From Bacteroidales bacterium (GTDB lineage: Bacteria > Bacteroidota > Bacteroidia > Bacteroidales > F082): a stretch of 64,000 nucleotides of DNA. Of the stretch, positions 46,533 through 61,308 are shown piece by piece. How positions within the stretch are numbered: the stretch's first letter is position 1; each line of letters opens with the position of its first letter. Location of the stretch: assembly GCA_021647205.1 (NCBI GenBank), contig JAKIVD010000001.1:186001-250000 (forward strand), read 5' to 3'. Below the pieces are notes generated by a model. It was not told the DNA's origin. It worked only from the letters and a program-made list of their open reading frames with translations, and ran no database searches. Made by a program: the position numbers and the translations under genes.

Positions 46533-46883
46533 TCAAAACTTCCCTTTCAAATCGCCACCATAATTGATGTCGCGGATTTTTGCATCGGGGTCGTTCAGCC
46601 AGTCGGGGACGTTGTCCTTGGTTTTCTCGAGTTTTTCGCGCTCCGTTTCCAGTTCATCTTCGCTGTAAGCGAAAGCCATTTCGGCCGAAACAACATGGGG
46701 GATGGTTTGCATGTTTTTCAGTTTGCTGATTTCTTCACCGGTATCTTTTCCCTCGATGGTCACGATAATGCGCCCTTTTTCATCATGGATATGATATTCG
46801 CAATCGGGCGAAGCTTTGACTGCTGCAAGAACCGAATCAAGGTGTTCGGGCCTGGTTTGGATAATGATGCTGCTGAGGTTCAT
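46533..46883 (-). CDS. napD: Periplasmic nitrate reductase chaperone NapD
   Basis: A 116-residue ferredoxin-fold protein that binds the Tat signal of NapA and helps its maturation. The start at 46883 gives the family N terminus (MNLSSIIIQTRPEHLDSV); 50 upstream codons in the same frame run into the intron boundary region and are rejected. CEYHIHDEKGRIIVTIEG and ISKLKNMQTIPHVVSAEM are typical NapD. The C terminus is somewhat extended by an acidic and basic tail. It lies about 3.2 kb away from the rest of the nap genes because of an inserted segment. Expression may now depend on a different promoter. Confidence 0.88.
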   Translation of the reverse strand: MNLSSIIIQTRPEHLDSVLAAVKASPDCEYHIHDEKGRIIVTIEGKDTGEEISKLKNMQTIPHVVSAEMAFAYSEDELETEREKLEKTKDNVPDWLNDPDAKIRDINYGGDLKGKF

Positions 46884-47116: not shown

Positions 47117-47920
47117 TCAAGAATATCCAACCTGCCAGTGATAAAACAGGTAAGGGTATTGACCCTTTACCCTTTCTAACCACCTGTAAGCTCGATTTAG
47201 ACTTGTCTTGTACCGTTTATATCCAAGGAACAGTTTTCCTGTTTTCTTTGATTTGGCCGTTCGCGCTTGAAAAGAATAACCCAGAAAATCAAATTTGACT
47301 GTTGGGTATTTATCTTTTCTACGATAATCACGGCAGTAAACGATTTTCGTCTTTTCCGGATGTAGTTCCAGTCCTGCCGATTTCATTCGTGACCTGATTG
47401 CATTAAGTGTCCGTTCTGCGTGGACTTTGTTTTTACAATGAACTATTACATCGTCAGCATATCGTGTAAAGTTCGCTGTCCCGTCAGTTTTCTCCAACCA
47501 TTTGTCAAATGCGTAATGTAGAAAAAGGTTTGACAACAGCGGACTTATTACCCCGCCTTGTGGCGTCCCTTTCCCTTGCTTTTGGATTAGTTCTCCTGAC
47601 TTTGTCAAAACTGGCATTTCCAACCATCGTTGTATATAAAGACGTACCCAGTTTTCTGGTACATGCTTCTCTACGGCTAACATCAGCTTTGCGTGGTCAA
47701 TATTGTCAAAGAACCCTTTTATGTCCAAATCTGTTACCCAGTCGGTTTTCCAACAGTTTTCCCGTACAGACGCCAATGCCTGATGCGCACTTTTGTTGGC
47801 CCTTACCTTCTTATAAGCCTCCCATACCATTTGTCGGCTTATCGGTATTGATTTTGTCTCATTCCATAAATCCATCTCTTTTATCCTTACCTGACTATGC
47901 TCTTGGCATAGCCTTTTCAT
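47117..47920 (-). pseudogene. ltrA: Group II intron reverse transcriptase with two in-frame deletions
   Basis: A 267-residue remnant of a protein normally around 420-450 residues. The N terminus (MVWEAYKKVRANK), the core (TDLDIKGFFDNIDHAKLM, GTPQGGVISPLLSNLFLH, RYADDVIVHC) and the C-terminal end (RAYRWLERVKGQYPYLFYHW) are recognisable. Fingers motifs are lost where VRANK joins SAHQAL, and the thumb and maturase X region is lost where KLFLGY joins KRYKTSLN. Both junctions keep the frame and fall at short repeats (NK and Y/K codons). The YADD active site is intact but the protein is very unlikely to be functional. Confidence 0.8.
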
Positions 47921-47935
47921 AGACGCTCAGCACCA

Positions 47936-47950
47936 TCCGCCTAAGGCGGA
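47936..47950. repeat. Short palindrome TCCGCCTAAGGCGGA
   Basis: A 15-base palindrome (7-bp stem, single-base centre) inside the intron's shortened 5' part. It is similar in kind, but not in sequence, to the palindrome in domain V. Confidence 0.5.
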
Positions 47951-48221
47951 CAGCACCTCTGTGTGGTTTGAAGCCCTCTCCTGCAAGACGACTCCGGTGG
48001 GTCATCAGCATTAGCCTGATTCCACCATCTCAATTACAGCATGCAGTAGAAATATTTTGCCGACTACTGCTTCTCGGCACACTATGAATAGTAGCCGATT
48101 TTAAAGCACTTACCTTTCAATTTATAACTAAACTTTACACAAAGATATGACCTTTGAATTTAGCACTAAAACCGCTATTATTTTTATACAGTGTTACCTG
48201 CTGGCTATTCTTCATTTTAGT

Positions 48222-48851
48222 CTATTCCTTAATTATTATAATTTTCGGTTTTTCATTAAACTTATATGATTTCAATCCTACATAAGTCAAATAGAAAAGA
48301 CCTAAAAAGGCTACAATTATTACTAATTTTCTTTTGTTGTACGGTGGTGGCGGAACATCACATATTCCACCTGGACAATTATATGTTTTCCATTTGAGTT
48401 TTTTGTATAGAAGACAACCCAAGCAAATTCCAAATACAGATTCAACAAACATTAAAAACAAACACAGCCAACAAATCCCGAGTCTAACGGGTGTGATAAC
48501 ATCAAAAATAATGTAATAGGTCATTATTACCCCTAAAATCATTCCTAATAGCCAAGCAAATCTTTTAGGTTTTGCTTCTACCCAATCAGGTTGTTGATTG
48601 CTAACTACTAAACCACCTATAAGCATATATGGGGCATACTTTGGATTTATTAGAACTCTTACAAAAAATTCTAAAATAAATGTTATTGAAAAGAGTTCTG
48701 CCCAAAATATAGTTCTATAAAGATGAACAGAGAAAAGACTTAAAAGACCAAGCAAAAACATTATTCCTGCACTTGCACGAGCATCTCTTTCATTAATTAC
48801 TTTGTAGTCATAACCATCTATCTTTTCGCCAAAATTTAAGAAAAGTCCCAT
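48222..48851 (-). CDS. DUF4395-type membrane protein
   Basis: A 209-residue membrane protein with about five hydrophobic segments. The LINPKYAPYMLIGGLVV, WVEAKPKRFAWLLG and CWLCLFLMFVESVFGICLGC motifs match the DUF4395 family, which often accompanies thiol/metal-handling genes. Several cysteines (CWLC, GICLGC and CPGGIC near residue 166) could handle thiols or metals. The C-terminal extension beyond residue 155 is unusual. It is last in a minus-strand AT-rich operon (gap to the HMA gene is 3 bases). The function is unknown. Confidence 0.65.
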   Translation of the reverse strand: MGLFLNFGEKIDGYDYKVINERDARASAGIMFLLGLLSLFSVHLYRTIFWAELFSITFILEFFVRVLINPKYAPYMLIGGLVVSNQQPDWVEAKPKRFAWLLGMILGVIMTYYIIFDVITPVRLGICWLCLFLMFVESVFGICLGCLLYKKLKWKTYNCPGGICDVPPPPYNKRKLVIIVAFLGLFYLTYVGLKSYKFNEKPKIIIIKE

Positions 48852-48854
48852 AAG

Positions 48855-49184
48855 CTATTCATTGAAAGGCTTATAGCCCGATTCTATAATGGTTTCTGTA
48901 ATTGTGTTAATGTCTGTTTTAGTTGAATCAAACTCTATTATGGCTTCCTTTTCAGTATGTGAGGCTTTAACACTTACAACTCCTTTAATTTTTGAAATAT
49001 TTTCTTCAAGTGTAACTTCACAGCCTACGCAAGTCATTCCATTTACTCCAATTTTTTCTCTAACTATATCAGATTCTTTAACAACAATTACTTTTTCAGA
49101 TTTCTTATCTGATGATGAGCAAGATGTTATGATAGAAACATTAATTACAGTTAGTAAAACAATTAATATGTTTTTGAATTTCAT
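48855..49184 (-). CDS. HMA-domain lipoprotein (MerP/CopZ-like)
   Basis: A 109-residue exported lipoprotein (lipobox ITSC, Cys22) with one heavy-metal-associated domain whose metal-binding loop is GMTCVGCE (Cys52, Cys55). HMA domains bind soft ions such as Cu(I), Hg(II) or Zn. Being lipid-anchored, it would bind the metal in the periplasm, like MerP does for mercury. It is AT-rich like its neighbours and lies 24 bases after the thioredoxin-like gene. The metal is unknown. Confidence 0.8.
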   Translation of the reverse strand: MKFKNILIVLLTVINVSIITSCSSSDKKSEKVIVVKESDIVREKIGVNGMTCVGCEVTLEENISKIKGVVSVKASHTEKEAIIEFDSTKTDINTITETIIESGYKPFNE

Positions 49185-49208
49185 TTTGATACTTTTTAAG
49201 GTTAATAA

Positions 49209-49475
49209 TTAGCAACTACCGATTCCTGCATTGACTAAATCGTCTTTTGTAATTTCTGCATTTTTACAACAATCAATTAGTTTTCCATTAACTGCAATAG
49301 CAGGAAGTCTTTTTACTCCATATTCTTTCATTTTAGTAATCCCGTCTGTGTTCCCCTTTTCGGATAAGTTGTGAATAGTTATTTCACAGTTTTCACAAGC
49401 GGTTTCTTTAACCAATGCCACAACAGGTTCACATACCGGGCATCCTGCAGTAAAAACTTCTATTTGTCGTTTCAT
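49209..49475 (-). CDS. Small cysteine-rich thioredoxin-like protein
   Basis: An 88-residue thioredoxin/glutaredoxin-fold protein without a signal peptide. The active site is CPVC (Cys12-Cys15), with a second CENC (Cys27-Cys30), a Cys-Cys pair near residue 69 and a C-terminal Cys; seven in all. The cis-proline lies in KRLPAIAV. It may deliver electrons or carry metal in the cytoplasm. The first gene downstream of the candidate CsoR operator, it is probably repressed by the gene before it. Confidence 0.75.
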   Translation of the reverse strand: MKRQIEVFTAGCPVCEPVVALVKETACENCEITIHNLSEKGNTDGITKMKEYGVKRLPAIAVNGKLIDCCKNAEITKDDLVNAGIGSC

Positions 49476-49504
49476 CTTATTTTGAGATTAATTTAATAAT
49501 GGAA

Positions 49505-49538
49505 CAAAGATGAGAACAAGAGGTAGGGGGTGACCAAA
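49505..49538 (-). promoter_or_regulatory. Candidate promoter and CsoR-type operator of the metal/thiol operon
   Basis: On the minus strand a near-consensus -7 element CATCTTTG (plus-strand 49505-49512) lies 22 bases from a -33-like TTTG (49535-49538). Between them is GGTAGGGGGTGACC (49522-49535), a G-tract flanked by GGT/ACC as in many CsoR/RcnR/FrmR-family operators. It lies between the regulator and the thioredoxin-like gene. Confidence 0.5.
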
Positions 49539-49544
49539 TATTTT

Positions 49545-49931
49545 TTAATCTTTTTTTTCGTTGAAGTCTTTTAGTCGGTTTTCAATAGTTTGGATTTCCT
49601 TGAGTTTGTTTGTCAATTCGGATAATTCCAAATTTGGAAACTCTTTTTTCAAGTATTCAATTTTTTCTTCATTCCCACAATTTCCCGGACAAGAATCAAC
49701 CGCTTTAACAATTCCGATTGCAAGTGCTTTTCGATAAACTTCATCTAAAAGCAAATAATGTGCTTTTTGGATTCCTTTGTCAATGGATTTGAATTGGATA
49801 TTTATTTGCTCAGGGTCTTTTCCTTCATCCAACATTTTCACAATTCCATTAATTTGTCCGCTCAGAGTTTTCAGTCTGGTTTTTATATCTGAAACAAGGT
49901 CTGTTGGAAGTTTTGAATTTTCTTTATTCAT
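49545..49931 (-). CDS. CsoR/FrmR-family transcriptional repressor, atypical
   Basis: A 128-residue all-helical DUF156 repressor. The DNA-binding start (IKTRLKTLSGQINGIVKML) and central helix (LLLDEVYRKALAIGIVKAV) are clear. By eye alignment the three canonical copper ligands of CsoR (Cys36, His61, Cys65) correspond to Pro40, Val65 and Ala69 here, so all are missing. A CPGNC pair (Cys81, Cys85) and an acidic helix follow. The inducer is therefore probably not sensed like copper in CsoR; it could be another metal or a reactive thiol. It probably regulates the three following genes and itself. Confidence 0.75.
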   Translation of the reverse strand: MNKENSKLPTDLVSDIKTRLKTLSGQINGIVKMLDEGKDPEQINIQFKSIDKGIQKAHYLLLDEVYRKALAIGIVKAVDSCPGNCGNEEKIEYLKKEFPNLELSELTNKLKEIQTIENRLKDFNEKKD

Positions 49932-50065: not shown

Positions 50066-51025
50066 CTATTCAATCTTCCAAATCATCAAATACTGATCGT
50101 CGCCGGCCGAAACAAAATTATGGTTATCTGCAAAAGCCATTTTGGTGACCACACTTTTGTGGCCTGATAAGATAAATTTATCCTTGCGGGTGATGGTGTT
50201 AAAAATACAAATATTATTGTCTTCAGTAGCCGAATAAGCGCCAATTAATCCGTCCCCTTGCAAACCGACAGAATAAACCAAAAAATCTTTTTGCAAATAA
50301 TAATTGTCGTTGGTAATTGTATTGTAAATACCAACTCTCCGGTCCTGACCTGCCGTGATAACGATGCCGTTTTGAGACACAATCTGGTAAATATTATCGA
50401 CATTAATTCCCGGAAAATTATTTTTTATTCGACAATTATTGAGGTCGATTTCATGTACAATGCCACTCTCGTCTGCCGTAAAAACAAATTGTTTCTCGGC
50501 TGTTAGGGAGAAATCAGAAAAAGTATAGGGAGAGATGCTCAATTCACAAATACGTTGTTTTTGGGCAACATCAAACAAAACAAGGTCATTACTCATCAAG
50601 CCCAATAACAGGGTATTCGGGTTAACCCACCTGGCTTTTTTCACCATCATCTTATCCTTTTCAGCATTAAATATGTCATCCCACTGGCCGTTTTCATAAA
50701 TGGAAACATTTCGGAAACCATGGTTTCCCTGAGTGACCACCAGCAATTTCCCCAAAGTTTTATCAATGGAATAGACTTTTGTTGGCACAACATCACCCAT
50801 AAAATCTTTCATCGGGGGCAGTTGGATAAAACCTGTTTGTTTACCAGACTGAATATTATAGGTTTCAATTGTACCGGCATCGGTTGACAGCGTGACTTGT
50901 GCGCCTTCCATAAAAAAATCAGTAATAGCTCCGGAAGTTTTGATTTTGAGGGAGGGATGGATTTCCTGAGCCGGGAGTGTAATAAATGAAAGACAAAATA
51001 AAATACTTAAAATAACCTTCATCAT
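50066..51025 (-). CDS. napL: Exported beta-propeller, NapL-like
   Basis: A 319-residue protein starting at 51025 or 51022 with a signal peptide (KVILSILFCLSFITLPAQ); the longer frame is rejected. The mature part has about seven WD40-like blades, the last ending SAGDDQYLMIWK. Its place directly after napB and before napD matches NapL, a periplasmic propeller of unknown role in epsilonproteobacterial nap operons. The identification rests on context and fold; sequence similarity to NapL could not be checked. Confidence 0.55.
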   Translation of the reverse strand: MMKVILSILFCLSFITLPAQEIHPSLKIKTSGAITDFFMEGAQVTLSTDAGTIETYNIQSGKQTGFIQLPPMKDFMGDVVPTKVYSIDKTLGKLLVVTQGNHGFRNVSIYENGQWDDIFNAEKDKMMVKKARWVNPNTLLLGLMSNDLVLFDVAQKQRICELSISPYTFSDFSLTAEKQFVFTADESGIVHEIDLNNCRIKNNFPGINVDNIYQIVSQNGIVITAGQDRRVGIYNTITNDNYYLQKDFLVYSVGLQGDGLIGAYSATEDNNICIFNTITRKDKFILSGHKSVVTKMAFADNHNFVSAGDDQYLMIWKIE

Positions 51026-51215
51026 TGCGAAATTTTCTTCACTAACCGGCGCGCGGATTTTCCGCGTACAATAACCTGCAATCTGCCAGAATTGCACTAT
51101 TTATACTTATCTGACATCAATCAAAAACAGGAAATATTTTACTAAAATTGCAGGAGTGTGGTACGCAAAAAATTCGCGCACCAGCAGATGTTTACAAAGT
51201 TATCAAACAGGAGGC

Positions 51216-51797
51216 TTACCGCACTCCTTCACCCATTTTGTCTTTCAGGTTCGATTTCGATTTGCCATTGCTCTGCCGGTAATCGGGATCGAAATTATTG
51301 GGAATGTCAACCGTTACCTCGGCCTGTGGAACATGGCACTGCGAGCAGTTGAACATGGCGCCGTTAAAATGCCCGAGGTCTTTTTCAACCACCTCGCCCT
51401 CCATGGCGTCCACACGGTATTTACCGTCTTCTTCCACCACAACAGGACGGTAGCTGGTAAAGTGTGTTTTGGGCAATGGCGTTGCTTTAAATTCGGGAGC
51501 TTTGTCGGGCATGTGGCAACGCAGGCATTTGTTATCTTCCACTTTTATGGGAAGAAATCCACCAACCCGGTGCGGTATTAATGGTGGTGCGTTTTCGTAC
51601 GACCGGTCGATTGTTTTGCTTTCGCCACTCCTGATTTTAGTATACTCGGGCATGTCGGTCAAGACGGATTCATCGCCCATTATTAAAGCATCCGACATAT
51701 CGATGTCTTCGTCGGCAATGTATTTTTCACTATTGTTATTGCCACATCCGGCAAGCAACAAACTAAAAATTACTGCACAAATCCACATTTTATTCAT
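51216..51797 (-). CDS. napB: Periplasmic nitrate reductase diheme cytochrome NapB
   Basis: A 193-residue c-type cytochrome passing electrons to NapA. Two heme sites are visible: CLRCH (Cys91) and CSQCH (Cys141). PPLIPHR (71-77) supplies a likely distal histidine, and THFTSYRPVV another. It has a lipobox (LLAGC, Cys18), so unlike soluble NapB it may be lipid-anchored. It is 12 bases after napH in the nap operon. Confidence 0.92.
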   Translation of the reverse strand: MNKMWICAVIFSLLLAGCGNNNSEKYIADEDIDMSDALIMGDESVLTDMPEYTKIRSGESKTIDRSYENAPPLIPHRVGGFLPIKVEDNKCLRCHMPDKAPEFKATPLPKTHFTSYRPVVVEEDGKYRVDAMEGEVVEKDLGHFNGAMFNCSQCHVPQAEVTVDIPNNFDPDYRQSNGKSKSNLKDKMGEGVR

Positions 51798-51809
51798 TAT
51801 TGTACCCTC

Positions 51810-52616
51810 CTAAATTTTAGTATTATAAATTGAAAATTTTAAAGCATTGTCTTCACAAACTTCGATGCAGCGCCCGCAATTGCTGCATTCATTTTTAATA
51901 AACCCTGAATGTTTTCCAACAATATGCAACACTTGTTCTTCGTGGCAAACGCCAAAACATTTCATACACATACTGCATTTGTTAACATCGTGTTTTACTT
52001 TGATTAAGGCAAAGCGGCTTGTAGCCGAGTAAAAAGCGCCCAAAGGGCAGAGGTGGCCGCACCAACCGTATTCAACAACCAGCAGGTCGAACAGGAACAA
52101 AGCAATAATTACTGCCCAACCCATACCGAAACCGAAAATAATCCCACGATGCAACAGGGTAATCGGATTTATTATTTCGAAAGCTGCCACACCAACTATG
52201 GGTGATAAAACGATTCCCAGTCCCAACACCCAATACCGGGTTTTTCTACTGATTGAAAAGAAGTTTTCCTTACTCGTTATTTTCCACTTCTTCCTCAGGT
52301 AAGTTGCCAGATCGGTAATCATATTCACCGGGCACACCCAACTGCAGAAACTTCTTCCGGCAATCAAAGCATAAAATAAAAGAACGATAATACCACCGAC
52401 AATCGCATCGGTACTCATGACAAACCCTGCAGCAAATGTTTGCAAAACCGCGTGTGGGTCGGCCAGGTAAAATGTTTCAAAAACGTAAGCTGAACTATAA
52501 TTTCCCATCAGGAATTTCCATCCCCACCAATTGGCACCGCCAAATAAAACCAGCAGCCCAATTTGTACTGTTCTTCTTAATATGATGTACCTGTTTCTCC
52601 AAATAATTCTACTCAT
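51810..52616 (-). CDS. napH: Quinol dehydrogenase ferredoxin subunit NapH
   Basis: A 268-residue inner-membrane iron-sulfur protein. Four membrane helices and cytoplasmic/periplasmic cysteine motifs (CSWVCPVN, CGHLCPLGAF) precede two ferredoxin clusters (CSMCMKCFGVC, CSNCGRCIEVC). With NapG it oxidises menaquinol and feeds NapB, replacing NapC, which is absent. The start at 52616 overlaps napG's stop by 8 bases; eight extra upstream codons are possible but place Met and Cys before the conserved start. Confidence 0.93.
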   Translation of the reverse strand: MSRIIWRNRYIILRRTVQIGLLVLFGGANWWGWKFLMGNYSSAYVFETFYLADPHAVLQTFAAGFVMSTDAIVGGIIVLLFYALIAGRSFCSWVCPVNMITDLATYLRKKWKITSKENFFSISRKTRYWVLGLGIVLSPIVGVAAFEIINPITLLHRGIIFGFGMGWAVIIALFLFDLLVVEYGWCGHLCPLGAFYSATSRFALIKVKHDVNKCSMCMKCFGVCHEEQVLHIVGKHSGFIKNECSNCGRCIEVCEDNALKFSIYNTKI

Positions 52617-53415
52617 CATCAAGCAGGTATTCCCAATCATTTAATTCATCTTCCGGAGAAGATTTTTTGGTTTGCGCCTCTTTCATATTTTTCAAACGCT
52701 CCTCATCAGCTTCGTCCCATCCTTTGATGTAATGCGCACCCACCCTGCCGGTTGCCACCGTCCGGGGGAGTACAAAAATCGCTGCTTTCTCGGTAACACA
52801 GGCATGCTCGCACAAGCCGCAGCCGGTACAAACATCACGATGGACCACTGGTTTTAAGAAGGCATGCTTCCCTGTCCGTTCGTTGCGTTTAAATTCCAGT
52901 GTAATGGCTTCGCCAAGCAAAGGACAAGCCCGGTAGCAGGCATCGCATTGAATGCCCCAATAGGCCAGGCAGGCTTCCTGATCGAGCATGGCAACACCCA
53001 TTTTTGCTTTATTGATGTCGGGCTTTTCCGTTTGTACGCCATCAATTTGTTTTGCGATATTTTTAAGATCAAGCGCACCACTTGGGCATACCGGAACACA
53101 AGGGACATCGGTGCACATATAGCAGGGAATCAACCTTGGTTTGAAAAAAGGTGTGCCCATGGCTGTGTGATCGTCTAAAGTGGCCAACTGTAAAGTATCG
53201 TACGGGCAGGCTTCAACACAAGTACCACAACGGATGCAGGCTTTTACAAAAAGTTCTTCCTTAATTGCAGCCGGAGGCCTCAGGGTTAATTCCGAAGCTT
53301 TTAACCTGATGGCTGCCGAGCCCCAGGCAGCGCCACCCAAACCCAGTAGCCCTGCCCCCCGGAACATGGTTTTCAGGGCATCTCTTCTGGAGTTCATATT
53401 TTGTGTGTCAGCCAT
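52609..53415 (-). CDS. napG: Ferredoxin-type protein NapG
   Basis: A 268-residue polyferredoxin exported by Tat (SRRDALKTMFRGAGLLGLGG). Four [4Fe-4S] cysteine groups are visible: CIRCGTCVEACP, CYMCTDVPCVPVCP, CDACYRACP and CTGCGLCEHAC. It forms the quinol-oxidising unit with NapH on the periplasmic face. It lies 14 bases after napA. Confidence 0.94.
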   Translation of the reverse strand: MADTQNMNSRRDALKTMFRGAGLLGLGGAAWGSAAIRLKASELTLRPPAAIKEELFVKACIRCGTCVEACPYDTLQLATLDDHTAMGTPFFKPRLIPCYMCTDVPCVPVCPSGALDLKNIAKQIDGVQTEKPDINKAKMGVAMLDQEACLAYWGIQCDACYRACPLLGEAITLEFKRNERTGKHAFLKPVVHRDVCTGCGLCEHACVTEKAAIFVLPRTVATGRVGAHYIKGWDEADEERLKNMKEAQTKKSSPEDELNDWEYLLDDE

Positions 53416-53429
53416 CTTGATCGATTGAC

Positions 53430-56222
53430 TTAAGCTTTGCTAATTTTAACGGCGCACTTTTTAAAATCCGTTTGTTTTGAAATGGGATCGGTTGCGTCAA
53501 GGCAAACCTTGTTAATCAGCACTTTTTCATCAAACCAGGGCACATAAATCATTCCTCTCGGCATACGATTTCTGCCTCGTGTTTCCACATGTGCTTTCAC
53601 TTTTCCACGCCTCGAATCGATCCAAATCAAATCACCCTGCTGCAAATTGTATTTCACGGCATCATCGGGATGCATATAACAAAGTGCCTCGGGGACAGCC
53701 CTGTAAAGTTCGGGAACCCGCATCGTCATTGTGCCACTATGCCAGTGTTCCAGCACTCGTCCGGTGCTCAACCACAAAGGATAATCTTTATCGGGCATCT
53801 CGGGCGGGTCCATATAAGGCCTGAAGAATATTTTGGCTTTGTTGGTCAGGTCAACTTTCCCGGCAGATTTATCGATTCCCTGCAAATTACCTTTGCCAAT
53901 CTTTTTTAAAGCTTTACCATAAAAAGCAAATTCGCCTGTATCGGCTTTTCTGGCATAAGGATCGTATTTCGAATTGAAACGCCACTGTGTTTCTTTCCCG
54001 TCGACTACCGGCCATTTCAGTCCACGCACTTTGTGGTAGGTATCAAAATCGGCATAGTCGTGGGCATGTCCTTCACCAAAGGAGCGGTATTCTTCCCAGA
54101 GGTATTTATGAACAAAAAAGCCATAACCTTTCCATTCTTCACCATTCGTGCCCAGGATGGTCCGTCCGTCGCCTTCAACTTCCGTATTGTGAAAACCTTC
54201 GCCAATCGGGTCGGGCCAGGTGTACGATTTGGCTTCTTTATTGGCAAACAATACATCGAACAAAGTATCTTCGGGAGTGTAGCCCATTTTTTTGGCTTCG
54301 GGCAGCACATCGGGCAAACCACCGGCAATGCCGGGAATGTTTTTCGCCCCCCAAACATCTTTTAGTTTAAACCTTTTGGCAATTTCCATGTACTGCCAAA
54401 GGTCGGGCATGGCATCGCCCACCGGAACAACCTGTTGTTTCCAGTGCTGCGTCCTTCGTTCGGCATTGCCGTAAGCGCCCCATTTTTCGTAAATCATGGC
54501 AACAGGCAAAACAAGGTCGGCAACTTTAGCCGATACGCCCGGATAGCTGTCGGAGACCACGATAAAATTATCCATTTTACGCGCTGTTTTCAGCCAGTGA
54601 TTGGCATTGGCCGTACCCATAAACGGGTTACAAACATTTACCCAGGCAAACTTAATTTTGCCATCCTCCAGGTCGCGGAATATCTTCATGATATGCGCAC
54701 CCGGTTTTGGGTTTAAGGTTTGAGAAGGAATTTTCCATAGTTTTTCAGAAACTTCGCGGTGCTTGGCATTGGCCACCACCATATCGGCCGGAAGCCGGTG
54801 AGAAAATGTCCCTACCTCGCGGGCGGTTCCGCAGGCAGAGGGTTGTCCGGTGAGGCTGAAGGCACCGTTTCCGGGTTTGGCTTGCTTGCCTAACAGGAAA
54901 TGAACCATATAAGCCTGCTCGTTTACCCAAACACCGCGTGTGTGCTGGTTCATGCCCATCGTCCAGAAAGAAACCACTTTCCTGTTTTTTTCCATATAGA
55001 GGCTGGCAAGCAGTTTCAGTTTTACTTTGAAAGAGGCCAGGTCTTCGTCGGCATTGCCTTTGGCCAGACCAGCCACAAAGTTAAGGGTGTAGGGTTCAAG
55101 GCCTTTTTTAAACTCTTCAAAAGAAATGGCCCAATGCCCTTTGGGGGTATCCCGGTGCTTCATTTCCATGGTATCACCTTCTTTAAAACCCAGGTAACCC
55201 AGTGTTACCGCTTCTTCTTTGGAGATTTTTTTGGAAACCTCTTTTTTCACGGTCTGTCTTTCCAAATCGGTAAAGCCGGGATGGTCCGGTGTGCGCATGC
55301 CATATCCGGTATCGACAAATCCGGTGGCAAATTGCATGTATTTATCAATGAATTCCTGATCCATCGACCCGGGATTGTTGTAAACAATTTCGCGGGCGAT
55401 GTAATTCCAGATGGCCAGATCGGTATGCGGTTTAAAAATAAGTTCGACATCAGCCAGGTCGGAACAGCGGTTGGTGTAGGTAGACAAGTTGATGATTTTA
55501 ACCCGTTTTGGATCGGACAGTTTCCTATCGGTTACCCTCGACCAAAGTACGGGATGCATCTCGGCCATGTTGGCACCCCAGGTTACTACGGTATCGGTTA
55601 GTTCGATGTCGTCGTAACAACCGGCCGGTTCGTCAATACCAAAAGTCTGGATAAAACCGCCCACAGCCGAAGCCATACAATGGCGTGCATTGGGGTCGAT
55701 ATTGTTTGAGCGGAAACCGGCTTTCATCAGTTTTGCCATGGCATAGCCTTCCTGGACGGTGTATTGGCCAGACCCGAAAACGCCAATGCCGGTGGGGCCT
55801 AATTCATCCAGGCTGCGCCGCATTTGTTTTTCCATTTCGTCGTAGGCAACTTTCCACGAAACAGGTTTAAACTTACCATTTTTACTGAATTTACCATCTT
55901 CGCCAAGCCGCATCAGGGGCTGTTTCAGACGGTCGGCGCCGTACATAATTTTGGCATTGAAATAGCCTTTTATACAATTTAAACCCCGGTTTACCGGCGC
56001 AGCGGGGTCTCCTTTAACGGCAACAATTTTTTCATTTTTTGTGGCTACCATAATGCCGCAACCTGTGCCACAAAACCGGCAAACGGCCTTGTCCCAGCGC
56101 CAATTACCCTCTGATTTTTCGGGTGTGGCTGCCAGCATTTTTTTTGGTAAAGAAATTCCTATGGCTGTAGCTGCGGCGGCAACGGCAGTGGTTTTTACGA
56201 ATTCTCTTCTGTTTATACCCAT
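53430..56222 (-). CDS. napA: Periplasmic nitrate reductase catalytic subunit NapA
   Basis: A 930-residue molybdopterin enzyme reducing nitrate to nitrite. It carries a Tat signal ([11 protein letters not shown]), a [4Fe-4S] motif with Cys48, 51, 55 and 83, and the Mo-ligand Cys182 in [12 protein letters not shown]. The length (930 rather than about 830 residues) and NapGH partners match the epsilonproteobacterial NapA type. Chaperone NapD is present 6.5 kb away. A strong hairpin lies in the 110-base gap before this gene. Confidence 0.95.
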
Positions 56223-56277
56223 GATATTATTTCTTATTGGAAAAGAGGAATGAAAAACAATTCTTTAAATAACAAAG

Positions 56278-56315
56278 GCAAACTATGATTTGAATATCTT
56301 CAAATCATAGTTTGC
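56278..56315 (-). other. Perfect 17-bp hairpin between the octaheme gene and napA
   Basis: GCAAACTATGATTTGAA (56278-56294) and its exact complement (56299-56315) enclose a 4-base loop. The minus-strand transcript continues with CTTTGTTATTT, not a clean U tract, so it may be a partial terminator, mRNA stabiliser or processing site. Confidence 0.6.
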
Positions 56316-56332
56316 AAAAAACTGCACAATAT

Positions 56333-57859
56333 TTATTGTGAGTATCTCTTGCGAAATTCGGCTGAAGCGGCTTTTCTCCTGGCCACTTCTTCCGGATCTG
56401 ACTTACCGATGAACCATTTGTGCATTTCACTGTTCAGGATATCGTCGAGCAATTTGGCAACACGGTCTGCCTGTGCCGATTTGCCATGCTTTTTGCCTTC
56501 AGCAATTAACTCTTGAACTTCGGGAACCATCTCCATATAAAACCTGTCGGCAACTTCAAAATTACCATGCCATTGTGTATAATCGGGTCCCATCATCGAA
56601 GCACCCATCCGGGCACGGCGGCCTTCGTGGTGCCATAAGAAGAAATAGGTCCACTCGATTTTATCATCGAAAGGAATTGGCGTAATCAGGCCTTCTTTTT
56701 TCAATAATTTCATTAATGCCAAAGCTGGTTTGCCAAACTTATCGTTGTATAAATTAACCATATTGTCATATTGCTTGTAAAAATTCTCAACATATATTTT
56801 AGTATGACATTGGTAACACACATTCTTCATGCCTTTTCTTCTTTGTTCCCAGGTAAGGAAATCTTCGGGCAATGGTTTTCCCTGCGCTTCGTATTTGGCC
56901 AGTTCGGCGGCATCAATTTTTTCAGAAACTTTGGGACGCAATGTCCAGCTGATTCTGTCGCCAACATCGTGGGTGACAGGCTGATCTGGCGTAGCGCTCA
57001 TGTGGCAGGTAGCACAGGTTGGTGCAGCTGAATAATCCTGACCAACAATCCAGGGCTGTGCATCAAGGTTCATGTCTTCGCGGTGTGCGCGGAAGTTGAT
57101 ACCATGCTTTGATTCGTTATAGATTTCCAACTGCGGATGGTCTGGCCCCATGTGGCATTTGCCGCAATTCTCGGGCTGACGAACCTGAGCAATTGAAAAA
57201 TGGTGCCTGTTGTGACACGCTGAGCAGGATCCTTTTGATCCATCCAGATTGATGCGTCCCATACCTGTATTTGGCCAGGTTTTAGGATCAAGCATCAGAA
57301 TACCCAAATCGTTGTACTTAGGGTCCCCGTTCTCATCGGTCTGGAACTGGACTCTTGATCCATGACATTGCCAGCAGCCTGATGCGGCGGCAGGATTAGC
57401 ATCATCCATAAAAGCCGCATGACCTTCCACTACTTCTGCCAACACATTATCCAGCGACCCCATTATCATTCCTGCATCAGCATGGTGGCTGTTTGTAAAT
57501 TGCTCGGCTTCTTCGGCATGGCACTTGGCACAGTCATTAGGGGTTACGATAGTAGCAATAAACTGCCCTTCGTGCTCATAACCGTCAACATCACCTTTTT
57601 GGGCCTGGTGACATTCAAGACAACCCACACCCACCTCGGCATGTTTACTGTCCTTCCATTGTTCAACAATAACTTTTCCGACACCCTTTTCGCCGTGGCA
57701 GCTTACGCAGTGCCTTGTTCCCTCGTCAATAATAGGCGCGGCTTTATAATCGGGCATTGCATGCTGTACCTCTTTCCAGAGCGCCATGAGTAAGATTATC
57801 AGGAATACCACACTTAGCACACCGATAATGGTTCTTTTTGTATTTAAACTTGTTGCCAT
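56333..57859 (-). CDS. Octaheme hydroxylamine oxidoreductase-family cytochrome c
   Basis: A 508-residue c-type cytochrome with eight CxxCH heme sites (Cys51, 80, 110, 162, 212, 232, 282 and 348) and the HAO-family segment MGPDYTQWHG (423-432). Unlike soluble HAO, the N terminus has an apparently uncleaved membrane anchor (residues 11-27), giving a membrane-bound periplasmic enzyme. HAO-family members oxidise hydroxylamine or, in epsilonproteobacteria, reduce nitrite or hydroxylamine. Placed between cytochrome b and napA, a reductive role on nitrite is plausible. Whether the tyrosine that cross-links to heme P460 in oxidative HAO is present could not be aligned. Confidence 0.8.
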   Translation of the reverse strand: MATSLNTKRTIIGVLSVVFLIILLMALWKEVQHAMPDYKAAPIIDEGTRHCVSCHGEKGVGKVIVEQWKDSKHAEVGVGCLECHQAQKGDVDGYEHEGQFIATIVTPNDCAKCHAEEAEQFTNSHHADAGMIMGSLDNVLAEVVEGHAAFMDDANPAAASGCWQCHGSRVQFQTDENGDPKYNDLGILMLDPKTWPNTGMGRINLDGSKGSCSACHNRHHFSIAQVRQPENCGKCHMGPDHPQLEIYNESKHGINFRAHREDMNLDAQPWIVGQDYSAAPTCATCHMSATPDQPVTHDVGDRISWTLRPKVSEKIDAAELAKYEAQGKPLPEDFLTWEQRRKGMKNVCYQCHTKIYVENFYKQYDNMVNLYNDKFGKPALALMKLLKKEGLITPIPFDDKIEWTYFFLWHHEGRRARMGASMMGPDYTQWHGNFEVADRFYMEMVPEVQELIAEGKKHGKSAQADRVAKLLDDILNSEMHKWFIGKSDPEEVARRKAASAEFRKRYSQ

Positions 57860-57902
57860 TTTTTATAAGTTTTAGGTTATTTATTTTTTCTTTTGAATGA
57901 AT

Positions 57903-58946
57903 TTAATGTCCGAAGGTTTCCCAGACCGTGAATACAATGATGGTTAGCATTCCCAAAACGCCAATCCAGAATCCTACTTCTCTGTCCGGGAAAACTTTAT
58001 CGAGGAATTTATCGATAAAAGGCCAGAAGAAAAGTAAGCCGAGAAAGACCATTGGTCCCAAAACGCCAACCAGCAGGTTTGTGATTTTCAGCCAGCGGAA
58101 AACCGCAAAGAAATACCACTCGGGCTTGATGTGCAAGGGTGTTACATTCGGGTTGGCGGGGTCGCCAAGCTGAACCGGGAATAATAATGAAAGCGTCAAC
58201 AGCAGTATCATGATTATGGATACCATAATCAACTCGGTAAATACATGGTCGGGCCAGAGAGGGAAGGTTTTCTTTTCCAAATTTTCGTCTCCTTTGAACT
58301 TAAGTTCGGTTACACCATGCGCCCTGATGAGGTAAACATGAATGCCAACTGCCATAACCAATAAAAGGGGTAACAAAACAATATGAAAAAGGTAGAACCT
58401 TGTTAAGGTGTTCTGACCAATCTCACTGCCACCCCGCATAAAATCGGCAATCCATCCGCCAATAAAAGGGGTAGCGCCGGCAATACCGGTTCCAACCTTC
58501 ATTGCCCAGTACGACATTTGTTCGTAAACAAGTGAGTAACCTGTAAATCCAAACATCAAAGTGAGCAGGAACAAAACAACACCAAACATCCAGTTGATGT
58601 CTCGTGGAGCCTGGTACGAGCGTGTAAAAAATACGCGCATCATGTGCAATATTAAGGAAGCAATCATGATGTTGGAAGACCAGCGATGAATACTCCTGAT
58701 CAGCCAGCCATAATCGGCAGTGTAGGTAATGTAGGCAATACTGTCGTAGGCTCGTGCGGTATCGGGCACATAATAAAAAACGAGCATGATACCGGTTATT
58801 ACCTGCACGGTGAACATATACAGCGGTGTTCCCCCCAAAGCCCACCACCATCGTTTCAGGTGGTTTGGGATGGGTTCGGCGGTTAATTCTATCAGGGCAT
58901 CCTGATCAACCGGGAATGATTGTTTAAGCCAAGTTCCTAGTCCCAT
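57903..58946 (-). CDS. Cytochrome b6-like subunit of a bc-type quinol complex
   Basis: A 347-residue membrane protein with two b-heme histidine pairs, His87/His101 and His188/His203. The second pair's 14-residue spacing matches cytochrome b6 rather than mitochondrial cytochrome b. The C-terminal part, like subunit IV, carries the Qo motif KPEWYFFAV, so N and C halves are fused. With the Rieske protein two bases upstream it would form a minimal quinol-oxidising complex. No cytochrome c1/f gene is seen; the octaheme protein downstream could be the electron acceptor. Confidence 0.88.
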   Translation of the reverse strand: MGLGTWLKQSFPVDQDALIELTAEPIPNHLKRWWWALGGTPLYMFTVQVITGIMLVFYYVPDTARAYDSIAYITYTADYGWLIRSIHRWSSNIMIASLILHMMRVFFTRSYQAPRDINWMFGVVLFLLTLMFGFTGYSLVYEQMSYWAMKVGTGIAGATPFIGGWIADFMRGGSEIGQNTLTRFYLFHIVLLPLLLVMAVGIHVYLIRAHGVTELKFKGDENLEKKTFPLWPDHVFTELIMVSIIMILLLTLSLLFPVQLGDPANPNVTPLHIKPEWYFFAVFRWLKITNLLVGVLGPMVFLGLLFFWPFIDKFLDKVFPDREVGFWIGVLGMLTIIVFTVWETFGH

Positions 58947-58948
58947 AA

Positions 58949-59383
58949 TTAACCCTCCGCATCTTTAAAGAAAATAAAAACGTTTTCGCCCTCAATTTCT
59001 GTATGATAGGTTTGCAAGGGTGTGGGCGGGGGACCGGCAAGCACATTACCGTTTTTGTCGAAGCGGCCCTGGTGACAGGGGCAATAAAATTCCTGGTTGT
59101 CTTTTTGCCAGTAAACGGTACAGCCCAAATGTGTACATACAGTGGACATGGCCTTGACTTCCCGTTCACCGGTGCGTACAAGGACGAGGTCTTTTCCACG
59201 CAAATCGGTAATCTTGCGGGAGGCGTTAATGGGCAATTCATTCAGGTGCATGGTGAAAATCCTTCGGGTTACATCGCGCTTTTTTGGTGTTATAAAGCGG
59301 AAACCCATCGCCGTTATTCCGGCAAATGCACCACCCAATGGAATGAATGCCAACATGTTTTTTAATGCGTCTCTTCTGTCCAT
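58949..59383 (-). CDS. Rieske [2Fe-2S] protein
   Basis: A 144-residue protein with the cluster motifs CTHLGC (residues 83-88) and CPCHQG (101-106). A Tat-like N terminus (DRRDALKNMLAFIPL) serves as membrane anchor and export signal. It is the electron-transfer subunit of the bc-type complex whose cytochrome b gene follows after 2 bases. The GPPPTPLQTY segment is the usual Pro loop. Confidence 0.93.
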   Translation of the reverse strand: MDRRDALKNMLAFIPLGGAFAGITAMGFRFITPKKRDVTRRIFTMHLNELPINASRKITDLRGKDLVLVRTGEREVKAMSTVCTHLGCTVYWQKDNQEFYCPCHQGRFDKNGNVLAGPPPTPLQTYHTEIEGENVFIFFKDAEG

Positions 59384-59401
59384 ATAATTGTTGTTATTGG
59401 T

Positions 59402-60736
59402 TTATTCCTTACTGAAAAAAGCAGGTTTAAAAGTAAGCATGACCCACGCCCAGTTGTTGGTATTGTTGTTAAAGCCGCCACCTGGATTGTCAGGATATTT
59501 TAAAGCCTGCATGGTTTCGGTAGCAAACATTTGAGAATAGCCCCCCTGAATGTTTACACTTTTCGACAATGCATATTTTACCACAAAATCAATCTCGGTA
59601 CCGAGTCCGCTGCTGTAATCTTTCCATACCGGAACAGCTCTGTCAGGGGCACTGATGTCTGCAGAAACTGTTGCTGCCGACATAAAATAGTGCGGGATGA
59701 GTGCGAAGCTCCATTTATTAACTGCAAATTTAAGTGGGAGAAAGATGTCGATTAAGCCAACATTTGCAACGTGGTTTCCTACATAAAAATAGTCCATCCA
59801 GCCGTTAAACTTGTGGTTGGTTCCATAAAAAGGTGTAAACGATTTGTCTTTTTTTCCACTCACCCCCCTGTCCTTTGTATCGGTTCCCGACAAGTACTCC
59901 ATTCCCAGTCCGAAAGCGAAGCCTTTAATTAGATGCAGGGAAACATCACCTCCAAAATATATTGCCGACAGTTCGTTGTTTGCTTTGTTTTTTCCCCCCT
60001 GGTAATAAGATGCCACATTAAATTTCACTTTATCCCCTTTAAATGTGTACCTGCCACCGATTGTCTGGCTGTATGCAATGCTTTCGTCGTAGATGGTGTC
60101 ATTGCTGTTCGAATCGTAAGCCAAACCGTTATTTAAGAACAAAATGCTCAAGCCTGATTTACCAAATTTGCCGTGATAGTACAACCATTGGATGGCTTTG
60201 TAGTTTTTATTGGTATAATCCACCCTTGTAACAGATGGCCGCATCGCATTGATTGCAAAACCGGCATCAAGAATCTGGTTATCGCCAAAAAAGAATTTGA
60301 AAACGGCTGCATCGTGGCTACGTGCCTGCTGTGCCCAACCTACGTTCCCGAAGATGCGGTGGTCATCATAAATGATTTCCATCCGTCCTACTTTTAAGCT
60401 CAAAATTTTTGCAAGCTTTAACTGTGCCCAGGCTTCATGAACAGAAACGCCGTTGGCATCACTTCGGTTCAATTGGTTCACATCACCCCAAACCCTGACA
60501 TCCTGAAGGCTGATGTAAGCTTTAAAGGTCTGGTTGCTGAAAAAACCGTTTAATCGTGTACGTTGCGAAACAAAACTTGCTGCATTTGCATCGTTGGGAA
60601 AAAGGGTCCAAAAACCATGACGGTACTCGTAGCGTGGTCTTACCTCACCAGTTATTTTTACTGTTTGGGCGATCATGTCGCCTGCGATTGCAATGAAAAA
60701 CCCCGTGAACAAAAGGGAAAATAAAAATCTTTTCAT
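59402..60736 (-). CDS. Alginate-export-type outer-membrane porin
   Basis: A 444-residue exported protein (signal peptide to about residue 23, MIAQ) with alternating barrel strands. The start TGEVRPRYEYRHGFW and VSQRTRLNGFFSNQTFKAY are typical of the alginate-export (AlgE-like) porin family. It heads the nitrate operon, so a role in passing nitrate or nitrite across the outer membrane is reasonable, but inferred. It lies 18 bases before the Rieske gene. Confidence 0.75.
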   Translation of the reverse strand: MKRFLFSLLFTGFFIAIAGDMIAQTVKITGEVRPRYEYRHGFWTLFPNDANAASFVSQRTRLNGFFSNQTFKAYISLQDVRVWGDVNQLNRSDANGVSVHEAWAQLKLAKILSLKVGRMEIIYDDHRIFGNVGWAQQARSHDAAVFKFFFGDNQILDAGFAINAMRPSVTRVDYTNKNYKAIQWLYYHGKFGKSGLSILFLNNGLAYDSNSNDTIYDESIAYSQTIGGRYTFKGDKVKFNVASYYQGGKNKANNELSAIYFGGDVSLHLIKGFAFGLGMEYLSGTDTKDRGVSGKKDKSFTPFYGTNHKFNGWMDYFYVGNHVANVGLIDIFLPLKFAVNKWSFALIPHYFMSAATVSADISAPDRAVPVWKDYSSGLGTEIDFVVKYALSKSVNIQGGYSQMFATETMQALKYPDNPGGGFNNNTNNWAWVMLTFKPAFFSKE

Positions 60737-60909: not shown

Positions 60910-61308
60910 TTATAAGTAATCCTGAAGGGTGTTTGCTTTCAGGTGGTTAACAAACTCAGCCGTTATTTCTTTTACTATGTTTTCTCTGATACATTTATCA
61001 AACGGACAGATATGTGCATCTTGATGACATTCACCCTGTTCCAACTCACCATCAATAGATCGGTAAATATCATATATCAAAATTTCGGATGGTTTCTTTT
61101 TCAACATAAATCCACCGGTGGGACCGCGAAACGATTTTAGAATACCATCTTTGACAAGCCGCTGCAAGACTTTACCGATATTATGTTTTGAAGAACCAAT
61201 TTTTTCAGAAAGCTGAATGGCGTTCATCGGCTTATCGGATTTTGCGATAAGAATAGAGGAGTGTATCCCAATAGAAGCGGCATCTGAAAAATTTATAACT
61301 CTCGGCAT
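60910..61308 (-). CDS. Rrf2-family regulator with three-cysteine cluster site (NsrR/IscR-like)
   Basis: A 132-residue winged-helix regulator. The helix-turn-helix (AIQLSEKIGSSKHNIGKVLQ) is followed by the wing (RGPTGGFML). Cys94, Cys101 and Cys106 (CHQDAHICPFDKC) match the [Fe-S]-binding loop of Rrf2 sensors, with a PFDKC close to NsrR. NsrR-type proteins sense nitric oxide and control nitrogen-oxide genes, which fits its place directly upstream of the nap/octaheme operon. Which stimulus it senses is inferred. Confidence 0.85.
   Translation of the reverse strand: MPRVINFSDAASIGIHSSILIAKSDKPMNAIQLSEKIGSSKHNIGKVLQRLVKDGILKSFRGPTGGFMLKKKPSEILIYDIYRSIDGELEQGECHQDAHICPFDKCIRENIVKEITAEFVNHLKANTLQDYL

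Follow-up and report, generated by a model that had tools for sequence, protein, structure and literature searches.

A probable nitrate-to-ammonium respiration cluster of a Bacteroidales bacterium, with an octaheme cytochrome as putative nitrite reductase of a bc-type complex

The window analyzed here is a 64,000-nucleotide stretch of DNA from a Bacteroidales bacterium, probably a marine one (GenBank assembly GCA_021647205.1, contig JAKIVD010000001.1, positions 186,001 to 250,000). It is part of contig C22 of a 3.53 Mb draft genome that is 98.5% complete. On strand - it carries, in order, genes for an Rrf2-family regulator, an outer-membrane porin, a Rieske protein, a cytochrome b, an octaheme c-type cytochrome (OCC), napA, napG, napH, napB and a WD40 protein (napL), followed by an island of about 3 kb and napD. 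This cluster probably encodes the respiration of nitrate to ammonium, with the OCC acting as the nitrite reductase within a bc-type complex. The same arrangement has been described in a small number of other bacteria; the window adds an informative new example, not a new kind of system. What is added here is an association between a membrane anchor scored at the N-terminus of the OCC and an adjoining Rieske/cytochrome b pair.

In the proposed scheme, the NapGH menaquinol dehydrogenase would feed NapAB, which would reduce periplasmic nitrate to nitrite. The Rieske protein, the one-chain cytochrome b and the OCC would form a three-subunit bc-type complex that oxidizes menaquinol by a Q-cycle. 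The Rieske centre would pass electrons straight to the OCC, which would be held in the membrane by its N-terminal helix, would take the place of cytochrome c1/f and would reduce nitrite, mainly to ammonium. Nitrite reduction would in this way be coupled to proton translocation, unlike that by NrfAH, a pentaheme enzyme with a NapC-type donor (not a Q-cycle complex) that carries electrons from quinol to periplasmic nitrite and forms ammonium. NrfAH would do the same job as the module in the window, and nrfA was not found in the genome of the window. If the scheme is correct, nitrite ammonification here could conserve more energy than with NrfAH because electrons go through a Q-cycle complex, and genomes scored as unable to reduce nitrite (no nrfA, nirS or nirK) could close the pathway.

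The OCC gene (56333..57859, strand -) encodes eight CxxCH motifs, and its product matches the Pfam family Multi-haem_cyto with 85.6 bits. Its membership of the HAO superfamily, put forward in a preliminary description of the cluster, is confirmed by profile and fold matches. An OCC profile of 15 rows scored 356 bits against the Ignicoccus OCC 4qo5 and 78-142 bits against seven HAO-type chains, HAO and 6h5l lying at 128-142 bits. When an AlphaFold2 model (36-row alignment, mean predicted local distance difference test score 86.6) was compared using Foldseek, the best match was again 4qo5 (template modelling score 0.66), followed by 6h5l, HAO and HDH chains. These chains matched at E ≤ 5.5e-8, and no other fold fell below 0.001. 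ONR entries were absent from the 8 sequence matches (E ≤ 1e-5) and the 11 fold matches (E ≤ 0.001), although the folds may still agree. In a quick tree of 107 rows with long branches, rooted by outgroup and built without HDH, the OCC of the window groups with OCCs of Bacteroidota, KSB1 and one Spirochaete, and a branch with a support of 100 sets it apart from HAO and two anammox HAO-type enzymes.

The catalytic Asp-His pair of HAO (which we take to be D267-H268) is conserved in the 107-row alignment, where D240 is found in 101 and H241 in 100 of the 102 OCC rows. In contrast, the HAO cross-link position (Y467 of N. europaea) is Q429 in the window, and none of the 102 OCC rows has tyrosine there (Q 51, H 43, W 6, T 1, A 1). 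The tyrosine is present in HAO, 6t5e and Ruegeria HAO. OCC residue Y427, two residues earlier, aligns with HAO W465, which leaves a slight chance that the alignment is shifted at this site. Further, HAO Tyr334 is replaced by Arg in 92 of the 102 OCC rows, and a His common to the HAO-type rows is replaced by Met in all of them (M422). Both marks of the hydroxylamine- or hydrazine-oxidizing HAO/HDH enzymes, the cross-link tyrosine and branching with HAO-type enzymes, are therefore missing, and the earlier idea of an HAO run in reverse does not fully fit the octaheme protein. A nitrite-reducing HAO relative reportedly also lacks the cross-link tyrosine (Ferousi 2021, cited in PMC12485887). For Caldithrix abyssi, it has been argued that a missing cross-link tyrosine means nitrite reduction (PMC5317091; this paper and the others cited below were available to us in part). 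Because the absence of this residue is linked to nitrite reduction in HAO relatives, the OCC likely works in the reductive direction. Among solved structures, the closest by both sequence and fold, Ignicoccus hospitalis 4qo5, is likewise without a cross-link tyrosine at the aligned site. Unlike the OCC of the window, it is archaeal and has Val for the His that follows the catalytic Asp, and the two share 26% identity in the fold alignment.

Directly upstream of the OCC gene are the genes for the cytochrome b (57903..58946, strand -) and the Rieske protein (58949..59383, strand -; Pfam 57.8 bits). The preliminary description had drawn a route from menaquinol through this pair to the octaheme protein. 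The pair is in place with its motifs intact (four haem-b histidines, a PEWY motif and the Rieske motifs), while the electron route itself we infer. Profile matches identify a b6-like N-terminal part and a subunit-IV-like C-terminal part in one cytochrome b chain, for which the best solved match is cytochrome b6 (188 bits). Residues H87/H101 and H188/H203 and the KPEW motif are invariant in 9/9 aligned chains, making a Q-cycle possible. In b6f one cysteine binds an extra haem; the corresponding position in the window is Ala. The Rieske protein has an N-terminal anchor and the motifs CTHLGC and CPCHQGRF. Compared to the canonical CPCHGSxY, the Ser of CPCHxS is absent from all 20 aligned Rieske proteins (Gly in 19, Ala in 1) and Phe stands at the Tyr place. 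This Tyr/Ser pair tunes the potential of Rieske proteins (PMC12954380), and the absence of both residues is as expected for a low-potential chain that would run on menaquinol. A separate cytochrome c1/f gene was looked for as a CxxCH frame of at least 60 aa. None was found in the window over the 2.6 kb that precede and the 0.9 kb that follow the OCC gene, nor in 25 of the 27 loci with the pair (L118 gave only 277 bases before the OCC), although a distant gene is possible. In L048 and L100, one CxxCH frame lies upstream of the Rieske gene. The cytochrome b of the window is not the only bc-type one in the genome: a second locus on contig G000:C2 (L158, 5866-8994) encodes a Rieske protein (CPCHGS) and then a 907-aa fusion of cytochrome b with a stretch that contains 11 CxxCH motifs.

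OCCs with the pair upstream share a conserved hydrophobic N-terminal helix (MsLntKRxIIxxLSfxFL...) with no evident cleavage site. In the window, this putative uncleaved membrane anchor covers residues 5-34 (57758..57847, strand -) and is a helix in the model. Using a fixed home-made rule (not SignalP), an anchor was scored in 26 of 27 OCCs with the pair and in 12 of 60 without it (Fisher 6e-12); 48 of these 60 have a cleavable signal or lipobox instead. Of 102 rows scored, 27 have the pair, 61 do not and 14, with the upstream region unknown, were left uncounted; L053 (7 CxxCH) and L079 (4 CxxCH) were dropped from the tree, and the final count was 87 rows. L106, L111 and L118 (one match weak, overlapping or cut) were set by hand as having the pair, L128, L129 and L131 as lacking it and L126 as unknown. 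L123, with the pair on the other strand, and L112, with the pair about 5 kb away, were counted as lacking it. The pair trait changes at least eight times on the tree, and seven independent pairs could be drawn on its starred branches, with four to six agreeing with the association and none opposing it. In three close relatives, G001, G003 and G052, where the OCC follows the porin with no pair between, the helix is recognizable but scores as a signal or lipobox.

The simplest reading of this association is an OCC tethered by its helix to the Rieske/cytochrome b core, where it would stand in for cytochrome c1/f, a replacement that would fit both the anchor association and the lack of a separate c-type frame. 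Some results weigh against it. The independent-pair test is borderline (median p 0.0625, range 0.031-0.125). Some of the 12 OCCs that score as anchored without a pair are artefacts of the crude rule; L137, L138 and L141, from a distant Bacteroidota clade, nevertheless look truly anchored, and the anchor is thus not specific. Conversely, L120 has the pair and its OCC was scored as having a signal. We tentatively propose, at a little short of even chances, that the anchored OCC is the cytochrome-c subunit of a bc complex. Together with Rieske/cytochrome b it would make up a menaquinol:nitrite oxidoreductase of three subunits that translocates protons and recurs as a unit under nine phylum-level labels. 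The OCC would have acquired its anchor on joining the complex, and loss of the complex would let the anchor decay to a signal or lipobox. An anchored OCC could then serve as a simple sequence mark of the complex-bound form and as a small system for studying electron hand-over from Rieske/cytochrome b to a multiheme reductase.

A scan of the species-genome collection gave at least 586 pattern matches and at least 568 relatives of the OCC, of which the best 80 were kept. Among these 80, the closest by identity are from metagenome-assembled genomes labelled Bacteroidales, Chlorobiota and Bacteroidota. A same-strand pair of Rieske and cytochrome b genes immediately precedes the OCC gene in 18 of the best 80 loci, or in 20 if L106 and L118 (one gene weak or cut) are counted. 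The 20 loci carry nine labels: Bacteroidota (one as Chlorobiota), KSB1, Nitrospinota, Acidobacteriota, Spirochaetota, Planctomycetota, Myxococcota, Gemmatimonadota and UBP7. In 9 of them NapA comes after the OCC, and 11 of the other 60 also have NapA in the stretch fetched. Elsewhere, a NapC/NirT cytochrome adjoins the OCC in six gammaproteobacterial and two plasmid loci (one representative tested), and an NrfD-type protein is encoded near it in twelve loci (one representative tested). With such varied quinol partners, the OCC appears to be a reductase that can be combined with different quinol modules. A relative of the OCC at E ≤ 1e-8 was present in 34 of 395 sampled genomes of the phylum, and a search of viral contigs found nothing. 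In eight gammaproteobacterial loci (L055, L058, L071, L073, L075, L076, L083 and L084) there are two adjacent OCC-like frames, either tandem genes or one interrupted gene. Desulfosarcina ovata plasmid Do28_1, typed as mobilizable, carries an OCC gene together with NapC/NirT, norR and NO (nitric oxide) reductase genes (L152, 5389-11749), possibly a nitrite/NO island.

The rest of the genome was searched for other nitrogen genes. No nrfA was found, in agreement with its absence from the cluster as first described; the best match to PF02335 elsewhere is another multiheme protein. Two candidates for a hidden nrfA were rejected, a 567-aa multiheme protein (27 bits over only 132 of 438 positions) and a 759-aa multiheme protein (21 bits over only 48 of 438 positions). 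Both were counted as above the low Pfam cut-off of 24.1, and the third match is the OCC itself. For scale, 22 of 24 nrfA-bearing relatives score 576-605 bits. No nirK was over its cut-off: the best candidate scores 55 bits (cut-off 296) in a 578-aa protein that by eye resembles a multicopper oxidase. No nirS was convincing either, as the 413-aa protein that passes the Pfam cut-off for PF02239 (28.6 bits) has no CxxCH and matches beta-propeller models better. The best nosZ candidate reached 27 bits (cut-off 625, with the model of one clade only); it lies near an aa3 oxidase gene and would be a CuA domain. A profile search of the genome for hcp was empty. The reported lack of napC holds within the cluster but not elsewhere, because a 498-aa protein with a NapC/NirT domain (6 CxxCH) is encoded in a multiheme cluster on contig G000:C35 (L156, 7259-14086). 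Its neighbours there are a 314-aa protein (7 CxxCH), a 202-aa membrane protein (b-type by eye), a 933-aa protein (19 CxxCH) and a 163-aa protein (4 CxxCH). In a set of 61 genomes of relatives, an OCC occurs in 10 and nrfA in 24. One of the 10 OCC genomes has nrfA versus 23 of the 51 without an OCC (Fisher p 0.07 overall, 0.05 within the family), which suggests that the OCC may replace nrfA.

Several observations weigh against a bc-linked OCC that forms ammonium. The avoidance between OCC and nrfA falls short of significance at 0.05 across the 61 genomes, and G017 has both genes. An AlphaFold3 prediction of the Kuenenia complex with its octaheme protein Kuste4574 gave no reasonable model (PMC12954380). 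A Kuenenia relative, HAOr, produces NO slowly, and the activity of Kuste4574 is described as unproven (PMC12485887). Further, genes resembling norC, norB, norQ and norD lie in a row on contig G000:C37 of the host genome (L157, 3282-7731), with NorB matching PDB 3o0r at 391 bits. These last two findings, together with the Rrf2 regulator upstream and the failure to find a convincing nirS or nirK, favour an unlikely alternative that still deserves attention: one-electron reduction of nitrite to NO by the OCC, followed by conversion to nitrous oxide by cNor, would amount to a truncated denitrification without NirS or NirK. However, a cNor-like gene (at least 290 bits) is present in only 4 of the 10 OCC genomes versus 8 of the 51 others (Fisher p 0.10), and NO as a mandatory product is therefore less likely. 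No cNor was found at E ≤ 1e-40 in G018, G026 and G030, which carry the operon (drafts, 92-94% complete), and no nosZ was over the cut-off of the one clade's model used. Ammonium is clearly favoured over NO as the product of the OCC.

It is improbable that the OCC is mainly a relay that passes electrons from the bc pair to NapB and NapA, so that the complex would drive nitrate reduction. The OCC gene is adjacent to napA, and a Qcr complex reportedly feeds Nap in an epsilonproteobacterium (Garg 2018, cited in PMC6896113), which we counted in favour of a relay. On the other hand, NapA is absent from the fetched stretch in 11 of the 20 Rieske-cytochrome b-OCC loci, including L044 and L046, which have no nap genes behind the OCC and to that extent also count against a joint pathway. 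The catalytic Asp-His of the OCC is conserved, NapGH is already there as quinol donor to NapA, and in Nitrospira the pair and OCC sit in an assimilatory nitrite cluster, according to the published text available. Reduction of a sulfur compound or another acceptor, with the nap neighbourhood incidental, is very improbable. A vent clade has HAO-family proteins for which a sulfur role was suggested (PMC9213671), but this reading is at odds with the nap linkage in 9 of the 20 Rieske-cytochrome b loci, with the plasmid relative that lies alongside norR and an NO reductase gene, and with the contexts in Nitrospira and C. abyssi as published. Hydroxylamine oxidation, the OCC and bc pair forming a hydroxylamine:quinone module, is fractionally less probable again: the HAO superfamily and fold would allow it, but the cross-link position is without Tyr in all OCC rows and the gene is linked to napA.

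The gene arrangement has precedents, and the claim that the cluster is a new respiratory arrangement does not stand: a Rieske/cytochrome b pair beside an octaheme nitrite reductase has been published for Nitrospira and Kuenenia and, together with nap, for Caldithrix abyssi. In C. abyssi (Kublanov 2017, PMC5317091), nap, Rieske, cytochrome b and an HAO-family octaheme gene ("eHao") lie side by side, nrfA and napC are both described as absent, and the culture reduces nitrate to ammonium. By the published description, it differs in having napM and no napB, while the window has napB, napL, napD, the porin and the Rrf2 gene. In Nitrospira (PMC6606698, PMC5767232, PMC6311188, PMC12342949), an OCC beside a two-gene Rieske/cytochrome b (petBC) is a proposed link between nitrite reduction and the quinone pool, and ONR and Rieske/cytochrome b are both highly expressed (PMC6606698). 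The likeness to the OCC of the window rests on published description, and the Nitrospira setting, unlike that of the window, is assimilatory (glnA, amtB). A quarter of the ONR genomes of Nitrospira have NapC instead of petBC (PMC12342949), the same substitution as in OCC loci of other phyla here. The Kuenenia R/b-3 complex (Kuste4569-4574; PMC12954380, PMC12485887) combines a b6-like cytochrome b, a Rieske protein and an HAO-like OCC, and all of its subunits, Kuste4574 with its Rieske/cytochrome b complex, co-migrate (PMC12954380). That complex has six genes, including a separate multiheme cytochrome at the cytochrome f place and an NAD(P) oxidoreductase, in contrast to three genes and no further c-type gene at the module in the window. 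In Nitrospina gracilis (PMC3578206), an octaheme protein is the sole putative cytochrome c adjoining a bc-like operon, an arrangement that the same paper states for Kuenenia and Methylomirabilis; the part of its text available leaves the kind of octaheme protein unspecified and does not mention nap. A partial literature search, which covered few subscription journals, found no description of the Bacteroidota arrangement with napAGHBLD, porin and Rrf2 or of the link between OCC anchor and Rieske/cytochrome b.

The eight genes from porin to napB are all open reading frames (ORFs) on strand - at the coordinates originally listed, but the cluster is longer than first described, with the Rrf2 gene upstream and napL and napD downstream. 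The porin (59402..60736, strand -) is of the Alginate_exp type (Pfam 46 bits), and its cluster is represented near the OCC at 15 loci, counting the window; some of these come from Zixibacteria, Myxococcota and Planctomycetota metagenome-assembled genomes. napA (53430..56222, strand -) reaches the NCBIfam NapA equivalog score (1423 bits, cut-off 904) and encodes a Tat-like signal that scores slightly below the cut-off of Pfam TAT_signal (22.1 versus 22.7 bits). napG (52609..53415, strand -; NCBIfam 356 bits, cut-off 269) and napH (51810..52640, strand -; 347 bits, cut-off 234) are followed by napB (51216..51797, strand -), the product of which has two CxxCH motifs and, by eye, a lipobox, and scores 93 bits with Pfam NapB and 44 bits, below cut-off, with the NCBIfam model. 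The Rrf2-family regulator (60910..61308, strand -; Pfam Rrf2 80 bits) starts the cluster 173 bases upstream of the porin and is found at the same place in L045, L124, L125, L127, L129 and L130. Its three cysteines may, by eye, form an iron-sulfur site, and it is a candidate NO/nitrite sensor. Identity with NsrR would be an inference, as the NsrR profile gives 38 bits (cut-off 182).

The intergenic gaps from porin to napB are 18, 2, 43, 110, 14, -32 and 12 bases. The full order Rrf2-porin-Rieske-cytochrome b-OCC-napAGHB-napL recurs in five related loci (L045, L124, L125, L127 and L130, of which L045 and L130 are near-copies), and G017 has the same order spread over two contigs (L126, L160). In L128, L129 and L131, the porin is followed by the OCC with no Rieske/cytochrome b between. 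The short gaps and kept order make it likely that the genes from porin to napB are co-transcribed. The single operon of the preliminary description is thus plausible, but it may have an internal expression step: the OCC-napA gap contains a perfect hairpin (56278..56315, strand -) of 17 bp with a 4-nt loop and a T-rich tail (fold z -5.6). In six relatives, of which two are near-copies, the corresponding gap contains mostly imperfect inverted repeats with arms of 9-20 nt and drifted sequence (no shuffle control), and the OCC and nap parts may therefore be expressed differently.

Beyond napB is the WD40 protein gene (50066..51097, strand -; PF00400 33 bits; a Met start at 51025 is likelier), assigned as napL by position. 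All 7 members of its cluster lie 5-6 genes past an OCC, adjoining napB or one ORF further. The chaperone gene napD (46533..46883, strand -; PF03927 87 bits) stands apart from napL because of the island of about 3 kb between them. In six relatives, where the island was not seen, a napD-like ORF directly follows napL. The island (47117-49931) encodes a reverse-transcriptase fragment, a DUF4395 protein, an HMA-domain protein, a thioredoxin-like protein and a CsoR-type repressor.

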